IMG/VR virus record: IMGVR_UViG_3300042466_000453
Coordinates: 1 to 32,408 of that record
Source of the DNA: a virus
Strand: one strand, 5' to 3'
DNA length: 32,408 nucleotides
Part shown: positions 24,936-29,068 of the stretch, one piece after another
Layout of the letters: every line of letters starts with the position of its first letter
How positions within the stretch are numbered: position 1 is the stretch's first letter
Translations under genes and position numbers: made by a program
Notes under the pieces: model-generated
Told to the model about the DNA's origin: nothing
What the model saw: the letters and a program-made list of their open reading frames with translations, nothing else
The model's database searches: none

Positions 24936-25427
24936 ATGAAGATAACAGACAAATTTGTTTTTTTCTGGGATGGTCCTTACTCCCAATGGTTACAACGTCC
25001 TATGCAAATAGACGGTGTAATGTATTCATGCTGTGAACAATACATGATGGAACAGAAAGCTTTGCTCTTTAATGATAAAGATGCAGCTAAAGCTATTATG
25101 AAAACAACTTACCCTGATGAACAGAAAGCATTGGGTAGACAAGTTAAAAACTTTAACCGAGATGTATGGGATCAGCACTGTATGAATATAGTATTCAAGG
25201 CAAACTATGCTAAGTTTTCTCAGCATCCAGATCTTGAAAAAGAGTTACGTGTAACAGATAACAGAATCATAGTAGAAGCCTCCCCTACTGATAAAATATG
25301 GGGTATTGGTATGCACGAAACAGATCCTGATGTTGAAGATATTACTAAGTGGCGTGGACTTAATCTGTTAGGTCAAGCTATCATGAATGTTCGTGCTGTT
25401 TTAAGATACGAACTATACAACGCATAA
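24936..25427 (+). CDS. NADAR-family protein (YbiA-like)
   Basis: 163 residues with all hallmark motifs: FFWDGPYSQW (9-18), YSCCEQYMMEQKA (30-42), ALGRQV (65-70), KANYAKFSQHPDL, then VEASPTDKIWGIG (113-125) and WRGLNLLGQAIMNVR. NADAR enzymes act on ADP-ribose-linked substrates: YbiA cleaves N-glycosidic bonds of riboflavin intermediates, and others remove ADP-ribose from guanosine in DNA, countering DarT-type toxins. In a phage a counter-defence role is the natural inference. The gene is followed by a small co-transcribed gene. Confidence 0.9.
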   Translation: MKITDKFVFFWDGPYSQWLQRPMQIDGVMYSCCEQYMMEQKALLFNDKDAAKAIMKTTYPDEQKALGRQVKNFNRDVWDQHCMNIVFKANYAKFSQHPDLEKELRVTDNRIIVEASPTDKIWGIGMHETDPDVEDITKWRGLNLLGQAIMNVRAVLRYELYNA

Positions 25428-25428
25428 T

Positions 25429-25584
25429 ATGAAGCTGAAAATCAGTAATCATTTAGACTGTTATTATATACTACCCGGCTTACGGGTGGTATATGATAAC
25501 TTCTACGAAGGAGAGCTGTGCTTTCTTTCTATAGAAATATTCTGGCTCAAGTGGAGCCTAGACTTTATTCTGGTAGACAAATAA
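25429..25584 (+). CDS. Small aromatic protein
   Basis: 51 residues: MKLKISNHLDCYYILPGLRVVYDNFYEGELCFLSIEIFWLKWSLDFILVDK. It starts 1 nt after the NADAR stop, so it is likely co-translated. The second half (CFLSIEIFWLKWSLDFIL) is hydrophobic and aromatic but contains charges, so membrane association is possible rather than certain. No family recognised. It ends 6 nt before the tmRNA. Confidence 0.6.
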   Translation: MKLKISNHLDCYYILPGLRVVYDNFYEGELCFLSIEIFWLKWSLDFILVDK

Positions 25585-25590
25585 TACCAT

Positions 25591-26102
25591 GGGGGTGCCT
25601 GGATTTGACAGGTAGTTAAGTGGTACGTAAACATGCGGACCGTTGGTAGAAGTGGTCCTTAAACAAACTGCAAACAATTAAACGGCAAGACACAGTCTGA
25701 CCGTGTAGCAGAAGGTGAAGCTATCTTAGCTTCTATCTTCGGTGAAGTAGCAGTAGCTGCCTAACCTACGGGGGATCTATCCCTGGCAACAGAAAATAGT
25801 AAACCGTAAGGTAACTTAGTACTGACAGCTCTTTAGGAGTGATGGGTGTGAAACTAAGTTAAATGACTACATCGCCCCAGCCTTACATTGATAAATGGTA
25901 CAGAGTCCTATGATAGCACTTACGTTGCCGGATACTGATGGCGTGCTGACATTTATCAAAGTTCCTGAACTTAAATCAGGTGGTGGAGTCCGACCATATC
26001 GGTTCACCCCCTACGGTGCAGTAGAAATACAGTACTAAGCATGTGATACGTTTTACGTATTGACTTCTATTCTGGACAGGGGTTCGATTCCCCTCACCTC
26101 CA
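25591..26102 (+). ncRNA. ssrA: tmRNA (phage-encoded)
   Basis: The 5' end GGGGGTG..TGGATTTGACAGG and the 3' end GG-AGGGG-TTCGATT-CCCCT-CACCTCC-A form the alanine-tRNA-like domain. The third pair is G-U, the AlaRS identity element. Internal hallmarks are GTAAACATGCGG near the start and TAAGCATGTG near the end, both close to the Bacteroidota tmRNA pattern. CCA is not encoded. A frame without stops begins at GGC 25684, encodes GKTQSDRVAE...FGEVAVAA (26 residues) and ends at TAA 25762. The resume codon is inferred by analogy with AAAC-GGC in Bacteroidota. At ~512 nt it is long, with an extra AACTTAGT/ACTAAGTT stem at 25812-25860. A terminator follows. Confidence 0.92.
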
Positions 26103-26126
26103 CTTTTTCATATGGCAAGCAATCGT

Positions 26127-26154
26127 ACCCCTGGTGTTTCTACACTGGGGTTTT
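26127..26154 (+). terminator. Rho-independent terminator after the tmRNA
   Basis: ACCCC-tg-GTGT-ttct-ACAC-t-GGGGT followed by TTT, 25 nt after the tmRNA 3' end. Confidence 0.75.
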
Positions 26155-27669: not shown

Positions 27670-28215
27670 ATGACAGAAGAAAAATATGAAGAGATTAAGA
27701 AAGGATATCTTGACAATATCAAGAGATATATGCTTTCTGTAGGAGATCTATTTCCTCATGTCACCGTATTCGGTGCACATAAAGATGGTAATGATAAAGA
27801 TGCTATCATCCACATCCCCATACCTGACGAGTTTCTAAAGTCAGAAGACATGAAAGATACTTTCGTTGATGTTGTCTTACCTGGTATAGCTGACGGTATA
27901 CATGAAAAGTTTATACCTTATGGTGTGGGCTGGGCAACAGAAGCTTGGGTCAGAACATCACCTAAAAATGATAAACTTCCAGATAACTGGAAGGATCTCC
28001 CAATCAAAAGGGAAGTACTGTTTATCAACCTGGAGTTTGAACACAAGACAGAAGCAATTGTCTATGATATCAAACGGATGGGTAAACAAGTCAACGAAGA
28101 AGGTGACCTAATAGACCAAATTGATCTCATAGAAGATCAGACTATGTCAGGTGCTGATAATATAAGCGGAAGGTTTAGCGGATTACTAAGTAAGTTTGTT
28201 AAAGCTCATTCTTGA
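27670..28215 (+). CDS. Conserved phage protein of unknown function
   Basis: 181 residues: EEIKKGYLDNIKRYMLSVGDLFPHVTVFGAHKD, then KDAIIHIPIPDEFLKSEDMKDTFVDVVLPGI, and VGWATEAWVRTSPKNDKLPDNWKDLPIKREVLFINLEFEHKTEAIVYDIKR (about 94-144). It is alpha/beta with no catalytic motif. It converges on the integrase gene with a 17-nt tail-to-tail overlap and no terminator between them. Confidence 0.65.
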   Translation: MTEEKYEEIKKGYLDNIKRYMLSVGDLFPHVTVFGAHKDGNDKDAIIHIPIPDEFLKSEDMKDTFVDVVLPGIADGIHEKFIPYGVGWATEAWVRTSPKNDKLPDNWKDLPIKREVLFINLEFEHKTEAIVYDIKRMGKQVNEEGDLIDQIDLIEDQTMSGADNISGRFSGLLSKFVKAHS

Positions 28216-29068
28216 TCTTCCTGACTCGTTCCAATTCACGCAACGTTTCATTAACAGCATAATGTTTTTTGGCCATCTGCACAGAGTGAGAGTTATGCTT
28301 AGCTGCCTCTATAAGAGATAGCTCAGATGATACTTCATCTGTATTAAGATGCTTCAAACTATACAGATCTGCTGTAATGTCAAGTTTATCCTTTACATGA
28401 CGTTTCCACCTGCGGGTAACCTGTTCTGGACGAATAGGTTTACCACCAGGTAATAAGCCTATAGAAAATATATAACCGGATATGTGATTACCAATCTGTT
28501 CCCTCCAGAAGGGCAGGGCTATTTCCTTAATTACCTTGGTTACCCAGCGTTTCTTTCGTCCCTTTTTGACAAAGACCTGGTAATATCCTTTATCTAAGTG
28601 TATGTTTTCTATACGTAAATCAAGTAGCTCAGTACGCCTGGCACCAGAGTGAAAGAAGATTTGTATGAATCTTAAGAAGACCGGGTCGGTTTCTTTTAAG
28701 TGTTCTATCAGTAATTTTCTTTGTTCTAGCGTCAGAACGGTACGCACAACCTCATCTTCCTGCTTTTTACGGAGTTGTAATACTGGATTATTTTCTATCA
28801 GTTCGTACTCCATAAGCTGTTCAAACAGCATGCCCAGGTAGGTTCTGTATGCGTTCCAGCTACGAGCAGAAAGATTTCTATCTTGCTCACACTGATCCAT
28901 TATCAAACGAACATGCTTACGCGTTATACGATGTGCTTCTATCTGATTATATCCCAGAGCCCGTATAGAAAGTTGGATATATTTCAATGAAGAAGCCACA
29001 CACTCTCGGGTATGTGGCTCCACTTTTAGCTTTGAAAAAGCGTAATCTAAAGATTTCGTAAGAAACAT
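28199..29068 (-). CDS. int: Tyrosine recombinase / integrase
   Basis: 289 residues. An N-terminal SAM-like core-binding domain (about 1-100) precedes the catalytic domain. Box I HSGARRTELLD has Arg144. Lys168/169 lies in FVKKGRKKRW. Box II is YSLKH at 236-240, with Tyr in place of His and Lys239 where Arg is usual. His261 and the nucleophile Tyr270 (AKKHY) follow. A Lys in box II (YSxKH) occurs in some Bacteroidota integrases as I recall. The gene reads away from attP, which lies 26 bp upstream of its ATG, the common int-attP layout. Confidence 0.9.
   Translation of the reverse strand: MFLTKSLDYAFSKLKVEPHTRECVASSLKYIQLSIRALGYNQIEAHRITRKHVRLIMDQCEQDRNLSARSWNAYRTYLGMLFEQLMEYELIENNPVLQLRKKQEDEVVRTVLTLEQRKLLIEHLKETDPVFLRFIQIFFHSGARRTELLDLRIENIHLDKGYYQVFVKKGRKKRWVTKVIKEIALPFWREQIGNHISGYIFSIGLLPGGKPIRPEQVTRRWKRHVKDKLDITADLYSLKHLNTDEVSSELSLIEAAKHNSHSVQMAKKHYAVNETLRELERVRKIKNEL

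Follow-up and report, generated by a model that had tools for sequence, protein, structure and literature searches.

The locus considered here raises the question: "does a phage tmRNA with an apparent tag of 26 residues truly encode it, and what would such a tag do?" The gene lies in a stretch of 32,408 nucleotides (positions 1 to 32,408 of the virus record IMGVR_UViG_3300042466_000453), which is called the window in its entirety. Phage tmRNAs as such are known, with 402 carriers among 18,146 phage genomes (PMC9004378) and 79 unique sequences in a 2025 database, which gives 10 aa as the most frequent tag length (PMC11915505).

The gene and the phage that carries it

Searching the window with the Rfam tmRNA model (RF00023) yields a match at 25591-26105 (+) with a score of 79.4 bits (E 1.9e-29; the gathering score is 47 bits), in which the model is aligned completely, from position 1 to 374. 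The initial annotation had read a phage-encoded tmRNA with tRNA-like ends and a G-U pair at position 3, a reading borne out by this full-length match, by the alanine identity pair G3.U70 (25593.26099) and by the T arm. The features are collected in Table 1. ARAGORN makes a single tRNA-Met call on the window and misses the tmRNA, so that routine annotation would overlook the gene. Among annotated phages, the search for nucleotide relatives returns T-arm matches at most.

Table 1. Features of the tmRNA locus in window coordinates
Feature	Position	Strand	Basis
One-piece tmRNA gene (ssrA)	25591..26105	+	RF00023 full model; fold of the entire RNA better than that of dinucleotide shuffles (z -4.35)
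Mature end; CCA unencoded (ACTT instead)	~26102-26103	+	sequence
Acceptor stem 5' strand GGGGGUG, contains G3	25591..25597	+	sequence, cmscan
Acceptor stem 3' strand CACCUCC, U70 at 26099	26095..26101	+	RF00023 match
Discriminator A	26102	+	sequence
T arm AGGGG-UUCGAUU-CCCCU, intact	26078..26094	+	RF00023 match
Resume codon GGC	25684..25686	+	cmscan; indel in relatives; ARAGORN at same site in L121
Tag reading frame GKTQSDRVAEGEAILASIFGEVAVAA (26 aa), stop TAA 25762-25764	25684..25764	+	conservation, pN/pS
Mid-domain stem 5' arm AACTTAGT	25813..25820	+	covariation with L114
Mid-domain stem 3' arm ACTAAGTT	25853..25860	+	covariation with L114
Terminator-like hairpin CCCCTGGTGT-TTCT-ACACTGGGG-TTTT	26128..26154	+	read by eye; not listed by the pattern scanner
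51-aa ORF immediately upstream of the tmRNA	25429..25584	+	sequence reading

The phage is classed as crAss-like (Crassvirales or a near relative) on the strength of its predicted crass-type TerL (phrog_6681, 2e-63), portal (phrog_6547, 1e-89) and major head protein (phrog_11589, 6e-30), with a TerL that is 25% identical to that of Culoivirus. The tmRNA of the window, one-piece and phage-encoded, belongs to such a phage. Among these phages the gene is an accessory one: a tmRNA match is found in 5 of the 50 records sampled by TerL (two of the five were included as already-known carriers), several contigs of 90-124 kb in the same sample give no match in a search that can miss diverged copies, and no match is found in seven further isolates or assemblies of crAss-like phages, crAss001 and a p-crAss relative among them. 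As a separate observation, one in-frame TAG is present in the TerL frames of G055, G056 and G057 (the records of L013, L015 and L018), which suggests that these crAss-like phages recode TAG or carry an intron.

The tag frame and the variable mid-domain

In the covariance alignment, the consensus resume codon GCA of RF00023 is placed on the GGC of the window with high posterior. From there the frame runs without a start codon and stops after the hydrophobic residues VAVAA. Since an open frame of 26 codons arises in 24% of composition shuffles, the frame is unremarkable by itself and it is conservation that decides the case for a long tag. We therefore turn to the relatives, which were found via the tmRNA 5' block, TerL and a conserved segment before the tag. 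Six crAss-like relatives (L003, L118, L117, L114, L121 and L123) have a tag of 26-27 aa in the same frame. The tag of L118 equals that of the window with two synonymous changes at the nucleotide level, and those of L003, L121, L117, L123 and L114 read AMTQSERVAEGEAILASIFGEVAVAA, GMTQSDRVAEGDAILASLFGEVAIAA, GKTKSDRVAEGEAILASIFYAEAVAA, GKTKSDRVAEGEAILASLFSAPVAIAA and AKTKSQRVEEGASIIAMAFSRVAVAA, respectively; that of L005 shows no difference from the window. In its N-terminal half the tag keeps its sequence as well as its length (GK[TN]xS..V).

Across six 26-codon sequences, the variable columns fall 9, 10 and 19 times on codon positions 1, 2 and 3 (permutation p about 0.003, with the columns taken as independent and relatedness disregarded). 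In the tag frame pN/pS is 0.43, versus 1.01 and 2.38 in the two other frames. Directly 5' of the resume codon there is an indel of one nucleotide, with AATTAAACGGC in the window and AATAAACGGC or similar in the relatives; it moves the upstream frame and leaves the tag frame untouched, which pins the tag start at GGC. ARAGORN, which does find the tmRNA of L121, reports the same long tag frame there. The 26-residue tag from GGC 25684 to TAA 25762 that the initial annotation had proposed is upheld by the cmscan placement, the frame conserved in the relatives and the pN/pS value, and the long tag is a real, conserved feature and not a product of chance.

The initial annotation had named a short ordinary tag as the outcome that would speak against its reading, and a short frame, GCA-AAC-AAT-TAA, does exist at 25670 of the window. 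It reads ANN* in the window only; the relatives give ANNKRNDTV*, ANDKRQDTV*, ANTKRQD* and so on, and in six of them the frame continues into unrelated residues, while both the covariance model and, in L121, ARAGORN set the resume codon at GGC. We reject the short tag, and give next to no credence to a resume codon elsewhere.

The additional stem noted earlier is real, but it is a variable element and not an addition unique to the window RNA. Its equivalent in L114 (ACTCTGAT/AGCAGAGT) keeps 7 of 8 pairs with four double compensatory changes, and in L117, L118 and L121 the mid-domain that carries it is either replaced or absent, as a result of which the total length of the tmRNA varies (416 nt in L121, about 513 in the window, about 683 in L118). 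Around the gene, L118 keeps the terminator-like hairpin as CCCTGGCGT/ACGCTGGGG with a compensatory change, as read by eye, and a sequence similar to the 51-aa ORF precedes the tmRNA in L118 and is missing from L121 and L123. A NADAR-domain protein (PF08719, 6e-50) is encoded just upstream of the tmRNA at 24936-25427 (+); the NADAR family is tied to ADP-ribosylation chemistry and possibly to counter-defence.

Tags and tmRNA forms in other phages

The next question is "do other phages carry long tags?" With the window tag, tblastn finds no match in annotated phages. The 35-aa tag shared by L009 and L031 (GKNNSRVVALGANAQIEANMNKVFSLLREEVAVAA, which ARAGORN starts 11 residues late) returns 29 records of Flavobacterium psychrophilum phages with 66% identity over 35/35 residues (E 2e-6). 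Fpv20 (Fipvunavirus; NC_031912.1 84536-84950, complement) has an RF00023 match of 58 bits with the 35-aa tag GNTNNSVVSLEDNAQVEANMNMAFSLIREDVAVAA; this tmRNA sits in a 2.3-kb stretch with no annotated genes, and the gene is unannotated in the records examined. The same kind of tmRNA occurs in 28 further Fipvunavirus-type records. The 35-aa tags of the Fpv20/L009 group have the same pattern of constraint, with a pN/pS of 0.46. Like the window, Fpv20 has a long tag ending in VAVAA and a distantly related crAss-like TerL (25% identity); it differs in the longer middle part of its tag. The Cellulophaga phage phi14:2 (Crassvirales, KC821624.1 4031-4502), also crAss-like by TerL, shares with the window a one-piece tmRNA and a long tag, here of 38 aa (GNDTDNTQLKANMTVVHNILNGSDALIGSSVQKLAMVA), with the resume codon GGA in the context TTTAAAC-GGA; unlike that of the window, its tag ends in LAMVA and its RF00023 score of 46 bits is just under the gathering cut-off. 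This region is annotated as small hypothetical CDSs only.

Other phage tmRNAs were found with a loose 5' pattern and, where there was no clade alignment, the start was set by upstream context (TAAAC or TAAAT before GGC, AAAC before GCA, etc.). Except in the clade of the window and in the Fpv20/L009 group, the tag lengths are uncertain by a few residues; they come to 34-37 aa in several uncultured phages (35 in L015, 37 in L013/L018 and L016, 34 in L026), with shorter ones in L004 (28), L002 (24), L011 (22), L028 (21) and L023 (20). Ordinary short tags are also read, namely GEFNYAIAA in L021 and DDEIDFRMAA in Lak-A2, so the long tags are not an artefact of the method, and they are common in such phages. 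The initial annotation had called a 26-residue tag unusual; it is long, but inside the range of 8-35 aa given in a review (PMC8012679), and it is the relatives with 37-38 aa that lie outside.

The long mycobacteriophage tags invoked earlier as a precedent can be re-read from sequence. A tblastn search with the Bxz1 tag gives no match, while the RF00023 scan of ET08 (Bxz1 group; NC_013650.1 96883-97319) shows exactly the same tag, ATDTDATVTDAEIEAFFAEEAAALV, of 25 aa. ET08 resembles the window in having a complete, phage-encoded one-piece tmRNA with a tag of at least 20 aa (25 versus 26), but it belongs to another phage lineage and host, and its tag is unrelated in sequence and ends in ALV. The Methylophilales phage Melnitz shares with the window a tmRNA carried by an aquatic phage; unlike that of the window, its tmRNA is in two pieces, is of the alphaproteobacterial type and comes with a glutamine riboswitch (PMC9004378). 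Phage tmRNAs and long mycobacteriophage tags are thus known, and the long-tag variant in these crAss-like phages appears to be new: no report of tmRNA in them was found in the literature searched, whose coverage is incomplete and where tag databases may list single sequences.

The gut Suoliviridae (Bohxovirus, cr124_1, cr130_1, cr52_1) are Crassvirales phages with their own tmRNA, as in the window, but theirs is circularly permuted and in two pieces (RF04321), and its tags, of 12-14 aa, are ordinary. The RF04321 scores are 70.6, 63.3 and 54.4 bits for L161 (PV686213), L162 (NC_055899) and L164 (NC_055901), and 41.3 bits, below the cut-off, for the weaker L163 (NC_055888); the permuted tmRNA of cr52_1 is weaker than those of Bohxovirus, cr124_1 and cr130_1. 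The tags in L161, L162, L164 and L163 are GNFNVVDYTCVA, GNVNNIVDYTNVA, DNYNVVDYTHVA and GNTSYVTDYTRLVA. We rejected a description of these gut-phage genes as broken RF00023 matches, as RF04321 shows the permuted order. In the literature the permuted form is assigned chiefly to Alpha- and Betaproteobacteria and Cyanobacteria. A RAGATH-20 RNA (RF03048, 119.6 bits) lies close to the permuted tmRNA of NC_055888, at L163:1910-2012.

Several further RNA elements accompany these genes. Group I introns (RF00028) split the tmRNA T-loop in the long-tag loci L123 (7082-7893, about 0.8 kb, 85 bits) and L016 (2266-2979, complement, about 0.7 kb, 96 bits); the latter contains a LAGLIDADG ORF (Pfam), and the former a 186-aa opposite-strand ORF that looks HNH-like by eye and has no Pfam match above the cut-off. 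Several large tmRNA-bearing phages have a GOLLD RNA near the tmRNA and tRNAs (RF02032, 256-322 bits; about 0.7-2.5 kb from the tmRNA in L002, L021, L023 and L026). Matches to tRNA that are 105-128 nt long and hold large insertions in their anticodon or variable region (L123:246-370 and 522-649, L117:2812-2916, L121:8862-8976) are not called by ARAGORN and are perhaps intron-bearing or degenerate phage tRNAs.

What the extended tag may do

We turn our attention to function. The tmRNA of the window is probably functional, loaded by the host SmpB and adding a degradation tag with an extended N-terminal part. The search for SmpB in 22 tmRNA-bearing phage records finds none, whereas 10 of 10 bacterial controls score, so that the SmpB of the host would have to serve. 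Once expressed and charged with alanine, the RNA would, in infected cells, enter ribosomes that have stalled on broken mRNAs, and the unfinished proteins would receive Ala and the 26-residue tag. The last five to six residues (..VAVAA) would be the usual C-terminal degron that Clp-type proteases recognise, and the conserved, more polar N-terminal extension may offer the protease a longer unstructured handle, give a host adaptor a place to bind, or do both. The phage would benefit by recycling ribosomes and amino acids while host defence or phage nucleases cut mRNA. The long tags in these phages all end in small and hydrophobic residues (VAVAA, VAIAA, VGLAA, AMVA), and such a C-terminus is the part read by Clp-type proteases in known tags (PMC8012679). 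The simplest reading is therefore a proteolysis tag whose spacer has been extended, although the AVAA end in the window departs from the canonical ALAA, and the conserved hydrophobic C-terminus favours ordinary degradation as the likely fate of the tagged proteins.

Could the long tag instead redirect proteins to a different protease, to a phage or host adaptor, to the membrane or into protection? We consider this unlikely, though it is the alternative to ClpXP-type degradation that deserves most attention, as the N-terminal half is conserved in sequence in the way a specific binder would need and long tags recur across several phage groups. Yet the part common to all tags is the degron-like C-terminal end, and the function of the resume codon constrains the start of the frame at RNA level too. 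Moreover, the hydrophobic moments of the extension are no better than those of shuffles, giving no signal of an amphipathic helix, the 35-aa tag has no relative in the PDB, and nothing resembling an adaptor is recognised in the neighbourhood of the tmRNA. The broader proposal, in which the long-tag tmRNAs of phages make up a conserved class whose tag extension is a specific signal for an adaptor or receptor, with truncated proteins sorted differently during infection, seems to us a shade more doubtful still.

Nor does it seem at all probable that the tmRNA works mainly as a decoy, titrating SmpB or tmRNA of the host, the tag being incidental. Such a role is reported for the TLD-only tmRNA of mycobacteriophage DS6A, which is a precedent (PMC4131195, PMC11915505), and the phage records searched hold no SmpB; protein-level constraint on the 26-codon frame and a retained mRNA-like domain are, however, not what a decoy would be expected to show. 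There is an integrase nearby (28199-29068), and the 3' end of ssrA is a frequent integration site of prophages, so the gene might be a host ssrA captured at the integration site. We hold this to be very improbable and reject capture at an attachment site: the gene is complete, the window has no second copy of the tmRNA 3' end, homologues with the same tag occur elsewhere among the phage records of its clade, and related long-tag genes occur in isolated phages.

The finding is one of a tag about 2.5 times the usual length, whose long tail related viruses keep. This crAss-like lineage maintains tags of 26-38 aa under protein-level selection, including in cultured Flavobacterium and Cellulophaga phages where the gene is unannotated, and such long tags are missed or mis-started by ARAGORN. 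Why phages carry a tmRNA of their own, and whether the length or sequence of the tag alters the fate of tagged proteins in infection, can now be put to the test.
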